Assembly (NCBI GenBank): GCA_024228115.1
Contig: JAAETT010000621.1
Coordinates: 1-35,678, forward strand
DNA: 35,678 nt
From: a bacterium
GTDB lineage: Bacteria; Myxococcota_A; UBA9160; UBA6930
Reading direction: 5' to 3'
This document shows positions 6,900-31,498 of this stretch, in pieces. Each line of letters begins with the position of its first letter. The stretch's first letter is position 1. The notes below the pieces were generated by a model. The model did no database searches and was not told where the DNA came from. It was given only the letters and a program-made list of their open reading frames with translations. Both the position numbers and the translations under genes were made by a program.

Positions 6900-9800
6900 A
6901 TGCCGTTTCGCAACCCGCTCGCTCTTATTGCCCTGGCCGCCGTCGCCTGCCTCGGGTTCACCTGCCCCACCCCGCCGGTGCAGATCATCCTCCCGGCCCA
7001 CAATTCTGTGGTCGGAACCCCGAGCTTCCCGGTGGAGATCCATGTCAGCGGCTCGTCCGTCGATGCGTCCGGAACCACGGCGACGTTGAATGGAATCCCC
7101 GTGTCTCTCACCGAAGGGCCCCCCGGAGTCTTCACGGCGACCGTCGATCCTGGAGACCCCCTGCTCGACAGCAACGAGCTGATCGCCTCGGCACCCCTTG
7201 TCGGTGGCGGCGGTAGCGTCCGGATCGCGGTTGCCTTCTTCGACTACCTGCCGCCGAAGTCTCGCGCCTTCGAGATCACCGACCCGGGGGATCTGCTCAC
7301 CGGGCCCCTGGCCGACAACCGGCTCGGCGACACCATGATCGAGAACGACGTAGCGCGCTTCGTGATCCAGGCTCCCAAACAGCGCGACTTGCATAGCGTG
7401 GGACAATTCGGTGGCAACCTGATCGACGCGGAACTCGTGAGCAAACCGGGGCTCGACCAGTTCTTCGAACTGCAGCCCTCGATCAATCTCGAGACGGTCA
7501 TCAACGCCCAGACCCTCGAGGTGCTCAACGACGGACAGAATGGTGAAGCGGCCGTCGTCAGGACCTGCGGTCCCGACGATCTGAACGACTACATCAACGC
7601 ATCCTCGCAGGTCGGGGAACTGGGGCTCTCGCTCCCCAACGTGTTGAGCATCGTCGATGACCGTGACTACGACGTGGACGGCTGTACGGAATACCGGCTG
7701 GAGCCGGGCAAACGCTACGTGGCGGTAGAAACCACCGTTCACAACAACGCCGCCAGCGACGTCAAATTCTACGTGGGTTACTACGTCAACGGCATGGGCT
7801 CGCTCGAGCAGTGGGTCCGAACCGGGGCCACCCCACTCGGCCTGGGCGAGGCCCTGGTTTCCCCGTCCAGCGAGGTCCTTGCCTTCATGGGCTTCGGCGC
7901 CGCAGAAGGAGTCGACTACGGCCTGGTCCCGATCAATTTCCCGGGCGGCGTTGGCTTCTCGAGTTCCTTCTCCACTTCCGGTGTCAGCTTCATGCTCCAC
8001 ACGCATTCCCTCCTCGCGGTGCTGGGTGCCGATTTCGACCCGTTCTTCACGGTTCCGGCCGGGGGGAGCAACTCTTTCCTCGGCTACTTCTCCGTCGGTG
8101 ACGGCAGCCTGGCCAACACCGCTGCGGTCGAGGCCGAGGTCAAGGGCCTGGCTACGGGAACGCTGAGCGGATGCGTCACGGTCGCTGGCTCGCCGGCCCC
8201 GTCCGCTCGGGTGGCGCTGGGTCCGATCGTTTCCGGCGCAATCTCCCGGGTCGACGCCCACTTCCTCACCGACGCCGCCGGCTGCTACCAGGCGGACATC
8301 CCAGCCGCGACTTACGGCGTCGCGGCTGCCAAGGAGGGCCACCTCTTCGAGGGGGCTGGCGTGATGCCCGTGGTCCACTCCGTTACGGTGCCGGCCTCCG
8401 GTGCCATCGCCGCGCCAACCATCGATCTTCCCGCGACCTCACGGATCCGAATCGAGGCCGTGGACGAAACGAACTCGCCGGTTCCGGTGCGGATCGTCTC
8501 GGTCGGAATCGACCCGAGCCCGGAGCCGACGCTCTCCTTCGCACTGCCCGGCCTCGGTTCCACAACTTCCGGAATCTTCAACGATCTGAAGGAATCCCCC
8601 CTGGACGGGCTGACCTCCGTGAACTTCGCGGGAGCCAGTGGAATCATCGAGTTCGACCTGGAGCCGGGCGACTATCAGATCACCGTCTCTCGGGGCACCG
8701 AATGGTCGATCCACCAGGAGAGCATCACCGCAGTCGCAGGGACGACTCACCTCGTCAGCGCACAGATCGCGCCGGTCCTCGACACCACGGGTTTCGTCTC
8801 CTCGGACTACCACGTCCACATGATCCACAGCCCGGACTCCCGGATCGGCCTGGCCGAGAGGGCCCTCTCCTACTCGGGAGAAGGCGTCGACAATATCATC
8901 GTCACCGACCACGACGCGGTCACCGACCTCATGCCGACCATCACGTCCCTCGGCCTCACGTCCTTCGTGCACGCCACCATTGGCGAGGAGATCACGACCT
9001 TCGACTACGGGCACTACAACGCCTACCCACAGGGCCAGGACACCTCGAAACCCAGCAACGGCTCGACCGACTGGGGAGGGGCTGCACCTGCCGGCAAGGA
9101 TTTCCCGCCTGACTACTATGGACTCACGCCCGCCGATATCGACAGGGCGGTCCTCGCCGACCCGAGCAACGCAGGCCTCGACACGGTCGTGCACATCAAC
9201 CACATCGACAGCCACTTCGGCCCCTTGCAGATCGACACGGGGCTCGAACCCCCGCAGTCGCTGCTCGCCGATCCGACCATCTTCCGGCTCAACCCGGACG
9301 TTTCGAATTTCTTCCATCCGTTCCTGGCCCTGGAGCTGTGGAATGGCGCATCCGTCGGCGCCCAGAACTCCTTCCTCAACAACCGGATCGGAGTCTGGAT
9401 GAACCTGCTCAACCAGGGGTACCCCTCGACCGCCATCGCCGACAGCGACACGCATACCGTGAAGGACCTCGAGAGCGCCGGAGGCCGAACATGGACGCCC
9501 TCTTCGAGCGATTCGCCGGCGGCGATCAGCGACAGCGAGATCGGGCTGGCGGTGCAAACCCAGCGCGCGGTCGGCGGGCAGGGGTGCTACCTGCAGAGCC
9601 AGCTGGTCGAAGGTGCCGCGGTTGCTGATTTCAGCCTCGGCGGGACCACGTTGGTCACCGCGACCGACGGTTCGGTCGATCTCGACATCCACGTCCAGGC
9701 GCCCGTCTGGGGGGAGTACGACACCATCGAAATCTACCGGAACGCCGAAACCGTCGTCGCCGGAACCTCGGGCGGGACGCCTGTCGCCTACGGCGCGAAT

Positions 9801-10148
9801 CCGACGACCGTGCTGACACTCGGTGCGGGTGACTTCGTGCGAAACACGCTGAACGTTCACCCGGGAGTTACGGGTGCGGACCGCTTCGACACCCTGCTCA
9901 CGGTTCCGCTCACGGACCTTACCGTCGACGAATGGGTCGTGGTCGTGGCGAAGGGAACGGTCGGCAACTCGACCCCCACCTTCCCGGTCTACCCGAACAA
10001 CGCCGACGGCGGCCAGACGCTGGCGCAGCTCACCACCCTCGATCCGAACGAGGGGGGCGTGCGAGCGCTCTGCTACACCAACGCCCTGTTCGTCGATGTG
10101 GACGGCAACAGCAGCTTCGATGCGCCTGGCGTGCAACTGGCTCCCTGA
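6900..10148 (+). CDS. Large secreted PHP-domain (CehA/McbA-type) metallohydrolase-like protein
   Basis: 1082 residues with an N-terminal signal peptide (hydrophobic L-A-L-I-A-L-A-A-V-A-C-L-G-F then T-C-P-T-P; Cys15 or Cys22 could be a lipidation site). After about 400 residues of beta-rich sequence comes a carboxypeptidase-regulatory-like beta sandwich (about 417-500). The PHP domain follows: D636-Y-H638-V-H640, V-T-D670-H671-D672, G-E696-E697, H765-I-N-H768, and D848-S-D850-T-H852. This is the full set of metal-ligand motifs of CehA/McbA-type PHP phosphoesterase-like proteins. A C-terminal beta domain finishes the protein. ATG 6900 has AGGA at 6890-6893. It acts outside the cytoplasm; the substrate is unknown, and related proteins hydrolyse phosphate esters or carbamates. 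It is followed at 15 bases by a HEAT-repeat gene, probably in one operon. Confidence 0.82.
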   Translation: MPFRNPLALIALAAVACLGFTCPTPPVQIILPAHNSVVGTPSFPVEIHVSGSSVDASGTTATLNGIPVSLTEGPPGVFTATVDPGDPLLDSNELIASAPLVGGGGSVRIAVAFFDYLPPKSRAFEITDPGDLLTGPLADNRLGDTMIENDVARFVIQAPKQRDLHSVGQFGGNLIDAELVSKPGLDQFFELQPSINLETVINAQTLEVLNDGQNGEAAVVRTCGPDDLNDYINASSQVGELGLSLPNVLSIVDDRDYDVDGCTEYRLEPGKRYVAVETTVHNNAASDVKFYVGYYVNGMGSLEQWVRTGATPLGLGEALVSPSSEVLAFMGFGAAEGVDYGLVPINFPGGVGFSSSFSTSGVSFMLHTHSLLAVLGADFDPFFTVPAGGSNSFLGYFSVGDGSLANTAAVEAEVKGLATGTLSGCVTVAGSPAPSARVALGPIVSGAISRVDAHFLTDAAGCYQADIPAATYGVAAAKEGHLFEGAGVMPVVHSVTVPASGAIAAPTIDLPATSRIRIEAVDETNSPVPVRIVSVGIDPSPEPTLSFALPGLGSTTSGIFNDLKESPLDGLTSVNFAGASGIIEFDLEPGDYQITVSRGTEWSIHQESITAVAGTTHLVSAQIAPVLDTTGFVSSDYHVHMIHSPDSRIGLAERALSYSGEGVDNIIVTDHDAVTDLMPTITSLGLTSFVHATIGEEITTFDYGHYNAYPQGQDTSKPSNGSTDWGGAAPAGKDFPPDYYGLTPADIDRAVLADPSNAGLDTVVHINHIDSHFGPLQIDTGLEPPQSLLADPTIFRLNPDVSNFFHPFLALELWNGASVGAQNSFLNNRIGVWMNLLNQGYPSTAIADSDTHTVKDLESAGGRTWTPSSSDSPAAISDSEIGLAVQTQRAVGGQGCYLQSQLVEGAAVADFSLGGTTLVTATDGSVDLDIHVQAPVWGEYDTIEIYRNAETVVAGTSGGTPVAYGANPTTVLTLGAGDFVRNTLNVHPGVTGADRFDTLLTVPLTDLTVDEWVVVVAKGTVGNSTPTFPVYPNNADGGQTLAQLTTLDPNEGGVRALCYTNALFVDVDGNSSFDAPGVQLAP

Positions 10149-10163
10149 GGTCATTTGCCCTCC

Positions 10164-11414
10164 ATGTCGAGGCGGTTCGCAAAGCTCAGTCTGTTGCCGT
10201 TCTTCTTGCTGCTGGCCCTCCCGGCCGGCGGCCTGGAGACGTCGATCCCTGCGGCCGGCGGCTACCGCTTGCTCGAGGCGGCCCAGGGTGCACCGCTCAC
10301 GGTCGTGGGCCTGGTCGAAGCCCCCAGTCGCATCGATACCTATGGCCGGCGTGCCGGGCTTCGTGTCGAGCGGGTTCTCAGCGGAGAGGCCAACCCGGGT
10401 GATCTCCTCGTGATCGCGTGGGAAGAGTTCGGCCGGGATCAACAGCTGCGATTCACGGCAGGGAAACGGAGTGTGTTGGCACTCGAACCGCTCCCCTCTG
10501 GTTCCCTCTGGCGCAAGCGATTCCCCGCACGAGAAGCCTTGGCGATCGCGGCCCGCGGAGAGGCATTCCTGAACGACCCGGACCCAACCACTCTCGACTC
10601 CCTGGAAGCCTACCTTCGCCTTTCCTCCGAGGAGAGAGAAGAGAAGGCGGGTGTCACCGCGTTGGCAGCGCTTGCGGCAGTCGGTGATGCGCGGTTGGCC
10701 ACGGCTGCCATCGATGCGCTGGCGCGTATCCCCGGCCTGGAAAACCGGCTGGAAACGGAGTCGACGGCCCACCTCGAGGCATTGCTCGAGAACGCCTCGC
10801 GCCCGGTCGAGCTCCGACGCCAACTCATCACCCTGGCAGGAGACCAATCCCTTCATTCATTGGAACCAGCGCTCTCGCCCCTCGCGGCCCTCCCCTCCGC
10901 GCTGCAAGGCTCGGCCGTCACATCGCTCGCGCAGCTTCAGGGAGGTCTCTCGGCGGAACGAACCGAAAAGCTGCTCGCGAGCGAAGACCCTCGAGTGCGC
11001 GCTGCAGCGACGCGATGGGGAGGCAAAGGACTCCCTGATACCAAGCTGAAGGAGCTGATGGCGAAAGATCCAGCGGGGCAGGTCCGGGCCGCCGCGCTGA
11101 CGGCCCTGTTCGAGCGACACGGGCTGGCCTCCCTCGAGGCCGCCCTTCCGGCGCTCAGCGATGACGATGGGCAGGTACGAGGGGCCGCCATGGAGAGCAT
11201 CGGGCGGCTAGGCGGTTCAGCCGTTCCTGCGCTTCGTGAGATGCTCTGGAATCCAGATGCAGATCCAGCAACGCTGACGACCCCGCTGATGACCTTGGCG
11301 CTCACCGGTCCGGAGGGCCTCGGCGAGCTGCAGAAGATCGCTGCGGAGCATCCGACCAAGAAGCTCCGCAAGCTTGCTCGCTTCGTCCTTGGGCAGGATC
11401 CGGGCCACGATTGA
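10164..11414 (+). CDS. Exported HEAT-repeat protein
   Basis: 416 residues from ATG 10164; a TTG at 10155, nine bases earlier in frame, is an alternative start closer to GAGG at 10147-10150. The N-terminus is a signal peptide (R-R-F-A-K then L-S-L-L-P-F-F-L-L-L-A-L-P-A-G-G). A beta-rich domain spans about residues 25-130, followed by alpha-helical repeats with HEAT signatures, clearest from about 265 on (D-P-R-V-R-A-A-A-T-R, G-Q-V-R-A-A-A-L-T-A-L and D-G-Q-V-R-G-A-A-M-E-S-I-G-R-L-G-G). HEAT solenoids bind other proteins, so a scaffolding role for the PHP-domain protein encoded immediately upstream is a reasonable inference. No catalytic motif is visible. Confidence 0.78.
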   Translation: MSRRFAKLSLLPFFLLLALPAGGLETSIPAAGGYRLLEAAQGAPLTVVGLVEAPSRIDTYGRRAGLRVERVLSGEANPGDLLVIAWEEFGRDQQLRFTAGKRSVLALEPLPSGSLWRKRFPAREALAIAARGEAFLNDPDPTTLDSLEAYLRLSSEEREEKAGVTALAALAAVGDARLATAAIDALARIPGLENRLETESTAHLEALLENASRPVELRRQLITLAGDQSLHSLEPALSPLAALPSALQGSAVTSLAQLQGGLSAERTEKLLASEDPRVRAAATRWGGKGLPDTKLKELMAKDPAGQVRAAALTALFERHGLASLEAALPALSDDDGQVRGAAMESIGRLGGSAVPALREMLWNPDADPATLTTPLMTLALTGPEGLGELQKIAAEHPTKKLRKLARFVLGQDPGHD

Positions 11415-27269: not shown

Positions 27270-28415
27270 ATGAGCCAGGACCCGCTGAACTCCCCCGAAC
27301 ACCAACTCTTTCGCGAGACCGTCCGCAAGTTCACCGAGCAGGAGCTACGGCCCCGTGCTCGGGAGTTCGACCAGATGGGCCGCTTCGATACGTCACTCTT
27401 CAAGAAGATGGGTGACCTCGGCATGTTAGGCCTTCGCTATGACCCGGATTACGGAGGCGCAGGTCTCGATTGGTCGTACTCCGCGGTGATGTTCGAGGAA
27501 CTGGGCCGTGCAGACAACGCCGGCGTGACGATGGGGATCAGTGTCCACACGGACATGGCGACGCCCTCCCTTGCCGAGTTCGGAAGTGAAGAGCTCAAAC
27601 AACGATTCCTCGTTCCCTCGATCGCCGGCGACATGATCTCCGCCATTGCCGTGACCGAGCCAGACGCCGGTTCCGATGTCTCCGGTGTCCGAACGCGCGC
27701 CGTTCGCGATGGTGAAGAGTGGGTGATCAATGGCTCGAAGATCTACATCACCAACGCGGCCACGGCGGATTGGCTCTGCCTCCTGGCCGTGACTGACCCC
27801 GACGCCGGATATGGAGGCTTCTCGCAGATCATCGTCCCAACCGCGACGCCCGGCTTCCGGTATGAGCTACTCGACAAGATCGGAAACTGGGGCTCGGATA
27901 CGGGGCAGCTCTTTTTCGAAGATGTTCGGGTGCCGGTGGCCAACACGATTGGCGAAATCGGTCGAGGCTTCCAGCAGCAGATGATGCAATTCCAGGACGA
28001 ACGCCTGGTCGCCTGTGTCAGCTCGGTCTCCGCCAGCATGTTGCTCTGGGAAGAAACCCGAAGCTGGGCGGAGGAGCGTGTCCTCTTCGGTAAGCCGCTC
28101 TCAAAGATGCAGAACACCCAGTTCAAGATGGTGGAGCTCTATACCCAGCTCGCGGCAGCAAAGGAGCTGGTGAATTCCTGCGTACGAAAGCGCGTAGCGG
28201 GTGAAGACGCGACGAATTTGATCACGATGGCGAAGCTCTTCTGTGGCGGCGTATGTCGTCGGGTTGCCGATGAATGCATCCAATTTCACGGCGGCTACGG
28301 CTACATGAAAGAGAGCATGGCGGGCCGCGCTTTCGTCGATTCCCGGCTGATCAGCATCGGCGGCGGATCGGATGAGACCATGCTGTTCTACATGGCCAAG
28401 CAGCTGGGGTTCTAG
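27270..28415 (+). CDS. Acyl-CoA dehydrogenase
   Basis: 381 residues, the normal length. The N-terminal helical domain has F-R-E-T-V-R-K-F-T-E-Q-E-L-R-P and L-G-M-L-G-L-R-Y-D-P-D-Y-G-G-A-G-L-D. The flavin-binding beta domain has the signatures A-V-T-E-P-D-A-G-S-D-V-S-G-V and W-V-I-N-G-S-K-I-Y-I-T-N-A. The C-terminal helices include F-G-K-P-L-S-K-M-Q-N-T-Q-F and C-I-Q-F-H-G-G-Y-G-Y-M. The loop that carries the catalytic Glu of MCAD reads I-G-G-G-S-D-E here, with Gly at the Glu position, so the base must lie elsewhere, as in isovaleryl-CoA-type enzymes. Electrons would go to ETF. It is a single gene behind an elaborate promoter region, convergent with the next gene, and the chain length preference cannot be read from sequence. 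Confidence 0.9.
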   Translation: MSQDPLNSPEHQLFRETVRKFTEQELRPRAREFDQMGRFDTSLFKKMGDLGMLGLRYDPDYGGAGLDWSYSAVMFEELGRADNAGVTMGISVHTDMATPSLAEFGSEELKQRFLVPSIAGDMISAIAVTEPDAGSDVSGVRTRAVRDGEEWVINGSKIYITNAATADWLCLLAVTDPDAGYGGFSQIIVPTATPGFRYELLDKIGNWGSDTGQLFFEDVRVPVANTIGEIGRGFQQQMMQFQDERLVACVSSVSASMLLWEETRSWAEERVLFGKPLSKMQNTQFKMVELYTQLAAAKELVNSCVRKRVAGEDATNLITMAKLFCGGVCRRVADECIQFHGGYGYMKESMAGRAFVDSRLISIGGGSDETMLFYMAKQLGF

Positions 28416-28468
28416 CCACCACGCCGCATGCCAGGCCGTGTGGACGGACGGGCTATCCGGCGATGCAC

Positions 28469-28885
28469 CTAGAGCACTCGCATGAACGCCACCAGATCGT
28501 TCTTGGCCGTCGGGTCGAGCTTCAACTCCAGCACCAGGTTGAAGAACTCGACGGTATCCTCGAGCGTCAGGAGCCGGCCATCATGAAGATAGGGTGGCGA
28601 ATCCTTGATCCCTCGCAGCGGGAAGGTCTTGATGCGCACCAGGGGGGCGTCGGCGTCTTCGCCCGCCCAGAGTTCGAGCTTGCCCTCGGCCTTGAACGCC
28701 CGCAGCAGCATGGCCTTCGCCGGGTAGGCCACGGCCTTGTCGACGAAGAGGTGCTGAACCGCATCGCTTCGGGCCGCACGGGCCGCCTTCACCCGAGCGG
28801 CGCCGTTCTGCCGCTCGGCAAACGTCTCCGCCCCCGCCGGCACGACGCAGCACAGGATCCACAGAACCGCGAGGCTCATTCGCAT
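28469..28885 (-). CDS. Chimeric short protein: L,D-transpeptidase N-terminus joined to cytochrome-peroxidase C-terminus
   Basis: 138 residues with a signal peptide (L-A-V-L-W-I-L-C-C-V-V-P-A-G-A-E). Residues 20 to about 85 (T-F-A-E-R-Q onwards, then Y-P-A-K-A-M-L-L-R-A-F-K-A-E-G-K-L-E-L-W) match the leader region of murein L,D-transpeptidases. From about residue 86 to the end (T-F-P-L-R-G-I-K-D-S-P-P-Y-L-H-D-G-R, then L-V-A-F-M-R-V-L) it is the C-terminal piece of di-haem peroxidase-like cytochromes. Neither the transpeptidase H...C site nor any C-x-x-C-H haem site is present. The join is in frame. It is probably a fusion relic produced by a deletion, although the open frame and signal peptide mean it could still be made and exported. 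No strong ribosome site is seen; ATG 28879 is an alternative start. Confidence 0.62.
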   Translation of the reverse strand: MRMSLAVLWILCCVVPAGAETFAERQNGAARVKAARAARSDAVQHLFVDKAVAYPAKAMLLRAFKAEGKLELWAGEDADAPLVRIKTFPLRGIKDSPPYLHDGRLLTLEDTVEFFNLVLELKLDPTAKNDLVAFMRVL

Positions 28886-29000
28886 CGGGGTCGATGATAG
28901 GGCAATGCGCGGGCGGGCATGGCATCCGAACGGGCAAGCTCCATCACGAGGCGCTATGGCTTCCCGTACTCGAAGCGATTCCTGATCCGAAAGGACCCCC

Positions 29001-29597
29001 ATGAGCCTCATCGACCTCGTCCGCTCTGAAGCGAAGATCCTGGAAATCTCCCAGCACCTTGATTCGCTCTCCCACGAAGAGCGGCTTCGTGAAGTCCGGA
29101 GCCTCTCGGGCGCCGACCAGAACCGGCTCTTCCAGGCTGCCGCCTCCTCGCCGCCTCTCGATTTCGCTTTCTTCGTGCCGGACGGCACGCCGCCGCTCAC
29201 CCAGGTGATCCACCACGGCAAGAACAGCCAGCCCGCCTTTCGGAACTTCGAGAAACGCTGGTGCAAGCCCGCCGACCGGGACGATGTCTGCTACGGCTAC
29301 AACGAGACGGTCGTTCGACCCTTGATCGGTCCGGGCTATTTCGTCGCCCGCGAAACCGACGACGGCGGGCGCGACCCGCGCGGCGCGATCGTCGTGGACT
29401 ACTTCATGACACCGCCCGAGGACGGCAAGGCACCCGGCTGGCCTCCCGTGAAGCCCAACTCCAGCGGTCTTCAGCGTTTCGTCTACCACCAGACGCGCGA
29501 CTACATGCGGCGCGTCTCGGCCCACGTGTCGATCGGCGAGGCCCATCGTCTCGAAAAGCGCGTCATGGGTTGGTTCATCCTTTGCCGCGAGGACTAG
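29001..29597 (+). CDS. Conserved-looking protein of unknown function
   Basis: 198 residues, cytoplasmic, with no signal peptide and no membrane segment. AAAGGA precedes the ATG at good spacing. The first 50 residues are helical (E-A-K-I-L-E-I-S-Q-H-L and S-H-E-E-R-L-R-E-V-R-S-L); the rest is a mixed alpha/beta domain with many aromatic and charged residues (R-N-F-E-K-R-W-C-K-P, G-P-G-Y-F-V-A-R-E-T, I-V-V-D-Y-F-M-T-P-P). I do not recognise the family. The 2OG-oxygenase-fold gene begins six bases after its stop, so the two are almost certainly co-transcribed, and a role near that enzyme is the only functional hint. Confidence 0.75.
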   Translation: MSLIDLVRSEAKILEISQHLDSLSHEERLREVRSLSGADQNRLFQAAASSPPLDFAFFVPDGTPPLTQVIHHGKNSQPAFRNFEKRWCKPADRDDVCYGYNETVVRPLIGPGYFVARETDDGGRDPRGAIVVDYFMTPPEDGKAPGWPPVKPNSSGLQRFVYHQTRDYMRRVSAHVSIGEAHRLEKRVMGWFILCRED

Positions 29598-29603
29598 GTC
29601 GCA

Positions 29604-30578
29604 ATGATCCCGCGCATCGACATCTCCGCCCTTCTCGAGGAGGGGTTCGAGGCGCCGCGTAGCCACTCCGTGCTCGAACAGATCCGCACGGCCGGAGCCG
29701 ACCTCGGTTTCATGACCGTCTGTGGCCATGGCGTACCACCGGATCTCATGATCGAGATGGACGCGGCCGCGCGTGCCTTCTTCGCCCTGGGCATCGAGAC
29801 CAAGACATCCGTCTCGCCGCGACCGTGGAATAGGGAAACCACGAACGTCTACCGCGGCTACTTCCCAAGTTCGACCGCCGGAAAAGAGGGCTTCGACATC
29901 GGAGAGCCCGCCCTGGCTACCGGCGACCCGCAGATGGACGCTCTCCTCGATGGGCCTTACAGCGAGGTGAACCGGTTTCCGACCGTACTCGGTAGGGGCT
30001 GGCGTGCGACCGTCGAGCGATACTTCGACGCCCTTTCCTCCCTTGGCGGCGTCCTCGTGGGAGCGATGGTGGCCGCGCTCGGCGGCGATCCGAATCGCAT
30101 CGCCGAAGCCTTCCATCGACCGCGAAGCCTGAGCACGCTGCGGCTCAACTTCTATCCGCCAAGGGGGCAGCACGAGGCTCCCATCGAAGTATCGCGCGAG
30201 GACGGTGTCGCACTCGCGTGTGAGACCTACGTCGATAGTGGCTTGTTGACGATCCTCTACCAGGACGCTCAGGCGGGGCTCCAGGTGCGGGATCGGAAGC
30301 GCGTGTGGCACGACGTACCGTTCGATCCCGACGTGTTCGTCGTCAATACCGGCCTTGCTTTCGAGCGAATCACCGATCGGGCCTTCATCGCAACCCGCCA
30401 TCGCGTGCTGCTCTCGCCCGCCGAGCGCCTTTCGATCCCTTTCTTCTTCGAACCCGTTCGCGAGTTCGTACTCGCGCCCGGCTCGTTGGGCCTCACCGGT
30501 GACCTCGAAGACGATGCGGAGCCCTACGGCAGGTTTCTTCGCGAGTTACTCACGAAGTTCGCCGAGTACGACCGATAG
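29604..30578 (+). CDS. 2-oxoglutarate/Fe(II) oxygenase-fold protein (isopenicillin N synthase family) with altered metal site
   Basis: 324 residues. The N-terminal non-haem dioxygenase domain has I-P-R-I-D-I-S-A-L-L and D-L-G-F-M-T-V-C-G-H-G-V-P. The core has L-R-L-N-F-Y-P, then Y209-V-D211-S-G-L-L-T-I-L-Y-Q-D, where active enzymes have H-x-D, then N-T-G-L-A-F-E-R, R-H266-R-V, and the co-substrate motif R275-L-S277. So the proximal metal His is Tyr (codon TAC, one base from CAC), while the Asp, the distal His and the Arg-x-Ser are kept. The protein may be inactive, may bind metal weakly, or Tyr may be a ligand. Start ATG 29604 is close behind the upstream stop. The natural reaction, if any, would be hydroxylation or oxidative cyclisation; the substrate is unknown. 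Confidence 0.83.
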   Translation: MIPRIDISALLEEGFEAPRSHSVLEQIRTAGADLGFMTVCGHGVPPDLMIEMDAAARAFFALGIETKTSVSPRPWNRETTNVYRGYFPSSTAGKEGFDIGEPALATGDPQMDALLDGPYSEVNRFPTVLGRGWRATVERYFDALSSLGGVLVGAMVAALGGDPNRIAEAFHRPRSLSTLRLNFYPPRGQHEAPIEVSREDGVALACETYVDSGLLTILYQDAQAGLQVRDRKRVWHDVPFDPDVFVVNTGLAFERITDRAFIATRHRVLLSPAERLSIPFFFEPVREFVLAPGSLGLTGDLEDDAEPYGRFLRELLTKFAEYDR

Positions 30579-30715
30579 CGGCCAGCCCGAGCGCCGAACC
30601 GGCGTAGCGCATCTTGAACTCGCGAAGGGTCCAGACGCAGAGAAGATCGCGTGCGCCGATCAACGCCATCGGATCATCACCCATGGCGCATTCATTCCGG
30701 ACACACCCTCGCGAG

Positions 30716-31498
30716 TCAAGACTGCTTCTCCGGCGCGGTCATGCTGAAGCGGAGGTGCCCATTCCAAGTGGCCAGGAGCGGGGTCTTCGGAAGCCCGAGC
30801 GAGCGGAGCGCGTCGGCCAGGGGATGGTCACCCAGCGAAATCGTGGCACCGCCCAACGCATAGCCGGTCTCCCGATAGCTCTGGGTGAGATGACTCACGT
30901 GCGGTGCACCCTGGTAGATCGAGTAGACCGGCGACGTGATCGACGCCGGGGTCTTGCTCCCGCTGGCCTTCATCGCGAAATCGAAGACCAGACGATCCTC
31001 CATTCGAAGGGAGCAGCGAAGCCTCCCGCCCGTCTGCTCGAACTCGATATCGGCGATTTCCTTGGGGAAGCCCCACATCTGCAGGCCGCATTGCTGCGAA
31101 AGGCGAGTCGTGACCTGGAGCCGCCACGTATAGCTGGCGACCCGGCCAGAGAGGAAATCACGCCAGGTCGAGAGGTAGCGGCCGACTCCCGGAACCGAAC
31201 CGAGAATCGACCCTTGGGAGCCCAGCGGCCGAACGAAGAAGGCCTGGGCGGTCTCCTCGTAGACGCCACAATCCGTATCCGTGTAGTGGACGCAGGTAAA
31301 GGCAAGGATTCCTCTACCCGGAGCGATCTCGGCGATCTCGAATCCCGTCTCCTCGATCAGCTGCTGCGCGGCGTGGGCATCCACGACGAAGAGAGCAGCC
31401 GCCGATGCACCGTCGCGAAAGAGTGTGGGATATCCGAGATCTTCACCTTCGATCTCGAATCTTCGCGCCGGCGAGTCGTCTGTCTTTTCGATGGACAT
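30716..31498 (-). CDS. Acetoacetate decarboxylase-family protein
   Basis: 260 residues. The family block Q-M-W-G-F-P-K146-E147-I-A-D-I-E-F contains the Schiff-base lysine position of acetoacetate decarboxylase (Lys115 in the clostridial enzyme). The following residue, normally a second Lys that lowers the pKa of the first, is Glu here. Preceding beta-barrel strands (A-F-T-C-V-H-Y-T-D and the V-P-G-V-G-R-Y segment) fit the fold. The altered dyad suggests the chemistry is not simple acetoacetate decarboxylation; relatives catalyse aldol, dehydration or other Schiff-base reactions. It is the last gene of a minus-strand run, separated by 193 bases from the VOC gene, with no gene visible in that gap. 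Confidence 0.8.
   Translation of the reverse strand: MSIEKTDDSPARRFEIEGEDLGYPTLFRDGASAAALFVVDAHAAQQLIEETGFEIAEIAPGRGILAFTCVHYTDTDCGVYEETAQAFFVRPLGSQGSILGSVPGVGRYLSTWRDFLSGRVASYTWRLQVTTRLSQQCGLQMWGFPKEIADIEFEQTGGRLRCSLRMEDRLVFDFAMKASGSKTPASITSPVYSIYQGAPHVSHLTQSYRETGYALGGATISLGDHPLADALRSLGLPKTPLLATWNGHLRFSMTAPEKQS

Follow-up and report, generated by a model that had tools for sequence, protein, structure and literature searches.

A chimeric open reading frame with L,D-transpeptidase-like and di-haem peroxidase halves: a probable relic of in-frame deletion

We describe a small open reading frame (ORF) in which the beginning of an exported L,D-transpeptidase-like protein runs in frame into the end of a di-haem peroxidase, and which we consider most likely to be a recent and one-off relic of an in-frame deletion rather than a new protein family. 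The ORF lies on the minus strand at 28469-28885 of the window (by which we mean the whole 35,678-nucleotide stretch of DNA analysed) and encodes 138 amino acids followed by a TAG stop, in agreement with the position and length given in a preliminary description of this DNA; its chimeric nature is indicated by two profile matches together with codon-position GC. On this reading the ORF would be a clear case, its join still legible, of two unrelated exported proteins becoming fused in frame at a few shared bases. A side result, the repeated finding of one haem-peroxidase gene reduced to its tail, cautions that a strong tail match to a protein labelled ‘cytochrome B6’ does not by itself establish a haem protein.

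The reading frame begins with an ATG at 28885, and residues 1-19 (28829-28885, minus strand), in the translation read by eye, resemble a signal peptide. For the first half, GC content at the three codon positions is 0.74/0.48/0.88, and for the second it is 0.64/0.30/0.81, both like neighbouring genes, whereas the frame that stays open upstream of 28885 gives 0.51/0.64/0.74, unlike them, which makes the ATG at 28885 a reasonable start; GC at the third position (0.88 and 0.81) is not lowered. Neither a CxxCH motif nor any cysteine beyond residue 13 occurs in the 138-residue translation, and both catalytic centres are therefore missing, as previously claimed. The ORF is present once in its 6.41 Mb genome (G000, a draft of 700 contigs that is 97.24% complete), where a whole-genome search returned no second copy and four other matches, all at E ≥ 0.056.

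The two parental halves and their join

Residues 19-89 (28619-28831, minus strand) match the N-terminal part of LdtF/DpaA/YafK-type L,D-transpeptidase-like proteins (LDTs), members of the YkuD superfamily (PMC8263019), and lie ahead of where the catalytic residues of such proteins come. Against a profile built from 28 YafK/DpaA-type proteins of the loci L150-L178 this segment scores 72.9 bits (E 1.6e-19). Close equivalents of the window's LRAFKAEGKLELWA are found in these relatives, and 28 of the 29 loci encode the YafK/DpaA motifs, the exception (L167) being a 151-codon open frame that lacks them. Parent-type proteins run for about 165 residues further and carry an HGxC...GC motif, whereas the chimera is without the catalytic part, and no YkuD catalytic domain was found in it (Pfam, E ≤ 1). 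One parent-type LDT, L154, matches Pfam YkuD above the cut-off, and scores 112 bits against the NCBIfam model LdtF_DpaA_YafK, below the equivalog cut-off of 365. With residues 1-88 as the query, matches at E ≤ 0.01 were obtained in 39 of 377 genomes drawn evenly from the larger phylum, the window's own included, and the only other members of its order among them were G009 and G016, both weak (E 0.003-0.007).

The remainder of the protein, residues 85-138 (28472-28633, minus strand), corresponds to the C-terminal tail of a MauG-like di-haem peroxidase, and scores 109.1 bits alone. A second profile, 451 positions long, was built from 63 full-length peroxidases; the full chimera aligns to its positions 385-451 over residues 69-138 (109.7 bits, E 7.2e-31), and residues 1-90 alone reach -2.1 bits on it, showing that the halves are distinct. 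Parent-type peroxidases are about 500 residues long and are labelled ‘cytochrome B6’ in many plasmid records; full-length members make up 75 of 80 relatives, these being the best 80 of 490 genome-contig matches by similarity to the query and so biased towards well-kept tails. Within the tail the chimera is 63-88% identical to 20 aligned tails of such proteins (e.g. L046, L057, L136), yet it lacks some 400 upstream residues and the CxxCH motif. The four NCBIfam models that the protein hits reach just 11.7-18 bits, where their cut-offs are 150 or more. Pfam matches of the chimera to a RoxA-like cytochrome and to ATP synthase F6 were weak, below cut-off, and were set aside. Chance similarity of either half can be rejected, given that 1000 shuffles of the chimera protein gave at best 6.2 bits on the LDT profile and 4.5 bits on the peroxidase profile.

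Scores of truncated pieces, together with a codon comparison, locate the join. The LDT profile score rises up to residue 90 and the peroxidase profile needs protein from about residue 85, such that residues 85-90 (IKTFPL; 28616-28633, minus strand) serve both. The join contains AAGACCTTCCCG, which is present in the window, in the LDT relative L154 and in several peroxidases: L154 has the codons GTG AAG ACC TTC CCG, the peroxidases L104, L045 and L136 have ATC AAG ACC TTC CCG CTG CGC, and the window has ATC AAG ACC TTC CCG CTG CGA. The tract common to relatives of both parents thus extends over about 12-15 nt (twelve bases in the codon comparison), and that of the true parents may have been longer. 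Judged by eye, the closest peroxidase DNA at the join is that of L057, which shares the window's CGA GGG ATC AAG GAT TCG codons. Two elements of the preliminary description are borne out here, namely a chimera of two parents, with both profiles far above shuffles and a switch at residues 85-90, and a likeness between the parent families at the join itself.

Distribution of the chimera, its parents and decayed peroxidases

A conserved family with this two-part architecture, the finding that would refute the preliminary description, was looked for in 79 genomes of the order, 60 relatives, plasmids, phages and viral contigs, none of which yielded a further homologue with both parts. In the order search (E ≤ 1e-6), 5 of the 79 genomes matched: in the window's own the match runs the full length, and in the other four it is confined to the tail. 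Four congeners lack the chimera, and no match crosses the join in the 60 relatives or in the best 80 of 490 genome-contig matches. Coverage of the chimera stays below 80% in all 41 plasmid records; the full peroxidase, used as the query, matches 40 plasmid records over at least 70% of its length. The chimera was likewise not found in phages or viral contigs. Among 302 loci, both profiles match only in six overlapping copies of the window locus. Seven loci (L059, L079, L096, L097, L100, L102, L110) had appeared to align ahead of the tail, beginning at residue 23, 44 or 62, and on inspection are ordinary full-length peroxidases for which the upstream alignment is weak and forced. In the literature, judged by titles, we found no bacterial fusion of this kind, which is no claim of its absence from print.

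With the full peroxidase and the full LDT as queries, the chimera is the sole orthologous match in its own genome, and neither missing half was found in the four congeners, where the matches are no more than distant di-haem relatives and, in G001, a single weak hit to the LDT (E 0.017); the genus that carries the chimera has thus yielded neither parent. Nor were the parents found side by side in the 14 neighbourhoods of full-length peroxidases from the phylum, in 20 LDT neighbourhoods (taken from 42 listed places, one being the window itself) or in the best 80 of 490 peroxidase loci; of 302 loci, none but the window's own carries both.

The surroundings of the chimera are native in part. On its left, an acyl-CoA dehydrogenase gene (27270-28415, plus strand) was identified by comparison with congeners as a native flank, its protein being 94% identical to that of G003 and 95% to that of G004, and at the DNA level the likeness to G003 extends as far as 28424, 9 bases beyond the end of the gene. 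On the right, an acetoacetate-decarboxylase-like protein (30716-31498) is 86% identical to that of G003. The two blocks flanking 28425-30715 are conserved in the genus; the intervening stretch, in which the chimera is accompanied by genes for a 198-aa protein and a 2-oxoglutarate-dependent oxygenase, was not found beside either of them in the congener contigs read, and the oxygenase has a relative (54%) on another contig of G003. The 198-aa protein (29001-29597, plus strand), encoded divergently from the chimera, has no match in Pfam or NCBIfam and is unassigned to a family, with relatives in G017 (78%) and G016 (54%) of the same order.

Searches with the full peroxidase, for which at most four candidates were scored per genome, matched 45 of the 377 phylum genomes at E ≤ 1e-8: 14 have long matches at 45-55% identity, 29 have weaker di-haem relatives, and two (the window's genome, 83%, and G046, 75%) have a well-conserved tail only. 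No front-only fragment at orthologous identity was seen in this search, and two tail-only cases are too few to support a claim. The G046 tail (L232:8375-8524; contig G046:C88) starts at PLRGIK, is the sole match to the gene there at E ≤ 0.001, and reads as intergenic from the open frames. A second detached tail, in a betaproteobacterial sequence (L038:7887-8174), has HDNR in place of HDGR, starts a little further upstream, with no further match in its genome at E ≤ 1e-8. Both detached tails resemble the chimera in retaining just the last 50-65 codons with no intact copy found, and differ from it in having no recognised secreted protein fused to them. Reduction of this peroxidase gene to its tail thus recurs, in two other genomes where no intact copy was detected. 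Decay takes another form in L037 (7269-8162), where an internal deletion with a frame change has put profile positions 32-169 in one frame and 352-451 in another, and no other peroxidase copy was found in that genome. In L058, two overlapping frames together span the peroxidase profile, and in two further loci that are not full-length (L044, L092) the open frames begin at the start of the locus sequence.

Deletion and alternative origins

We infer that the genes for an exported YafK/DpaA-type protein and for a di-haem peroxidase probably once lay side by side and were read in the same direction, that a deletion between the stretch common to both (about 12-15 nt, AAGACCTTCCCG) would have taken the catalytic end of the LDT and some nine tenths of the peroxidase, leaving an in-frame ORF of 138 codons, and that the result would be without function: any protein made from it would be exported and would catalyse neither of the parental reactions, and its fragments would not be expected to fold as the parents do. 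RecA-independent slippage is the usual route for deletion between short repeats, and one deletion through a tandem pair would explain the loss of both missing halves at once. Three other genomes with a decayed peroxidase and no intact copy (G046, L038, L037) count in favour of a relic. Against it stands the main gap, that no genome has the parents adjacent, along with the intact, undecayed state of both halves and the weakness of the N-terminal matches elsewhere in the order. Deletion at microhomology, as suggested in the preliminary description, has in its favour the shared tract and the failure to find either removed half in the genome, while the adjacent parents that it calls for have no example among the 302 loci.

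The state of the two halves bears on the age of the fusion. At all 35 tail positions with ≥ 95% conservation among 83 relatives (of 84 tails, the shorter G046 tail being dropped) the chimera agrees with them, and in a simple neutral simulation the chance of zero changes was 0.49, 0.22, 0.094 and 0.022 at 1, 2, 3 and 5% substitution per site, respectively, in a test that is generous given that the relatives were picked by similarity to the query. Intact peroxidase members look similar to the chimera tail in their conservation. The absence of erosion in either half implies that the fusion is either recent or still constrained, two states that a single sequence would not tell apart. A predicted model of the chimera has a mean pLDDT of 83.3 and a pTM of 0.52; confidence is low for residues 91-100, and a comparison of the model with the PDB returned nothing at E ≤ 0.001. 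Its input alignment comprised the chimera, 24 LDT fragments and 20 peroxidase tails, and was made from the halves separately, so that pLDDT there reflects the parents; a model of this sort would be expected from two local fragments connected by a loop.

The preliminary description left a choice between a relic and a new small secreted protein, and the evidence leans towards the relic. A working secreted protein, in which an exported N-terminal part carries a peroxidase tail kept for a binding or structural role, would be in keeping with the intact frame, the signal-peptide-like start, the un-eroded conserved tail residues and the mean pLDDT, but we regard it as improbable: the chimera was found in one genome only, the pTM of 0.52 comes with no recognised fold and a pLDDT owed to the parents, and recency accounts equally well for the missing erosion. 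No sigma-70-like promoter was found in 28300-29100, which says little, as other promoter types fall outside the scan. An artefact of assembly or binning, whereby two real genes, from separate loci or separate organisms, became fused at a common stretch during metagenome assembly, is unlikely in our view, although the assembly is a draft of 700 contigs, the join falls on a stretch common to both parents and neither parent was found elsewhere in the genus. The outer flanks, however, belong to the genus, and codon-position GC is coding-like on either side of the join. A mis-join would usually leave the other halves somewhere, unless unbinned, and their absence from the assembly consequently counts against an artefact. 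Usual assembly word lengths exceed 12-15 nt, and the tract common to the relatives falls below them.

We give very little credence to insertion, by which a detached peroxidase tail would have been moved by recombination, in frame, into a YafK-type gene so as to replace its end. Detached tails do exist in G046 and in the L038 genome, with no intact copy detected, and that of G046 starts at nearly the same residue as the chimera's, yet the L038 tail begins further upstream, no direct repeat was found in 28300-29100, no transposase or integrase was found among 26 ORFs of the window scanned with Pfam, and no tail was found in phages or viral contigs. Moreover, the displaced end of the LDT should remain nearby, and was not found. 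A bolder version, in which the last 50-60 peroxidase codons are a module that repeatedly survives or moves alone and has here been captured in frame behind an export signal, as the first step of a new secreted protein, strikes us as similarly improbable, although the tail does stand without a detected intact copy in three genomes, this one included.

Elsewhere in the window, two long frames overlap on opposite strands, one of 1082 codons (6900-10148, plus strand) and one of 805 codons (8439-10856, minus strand), and only the plus-strand frame has a Pfam match, which is weak.
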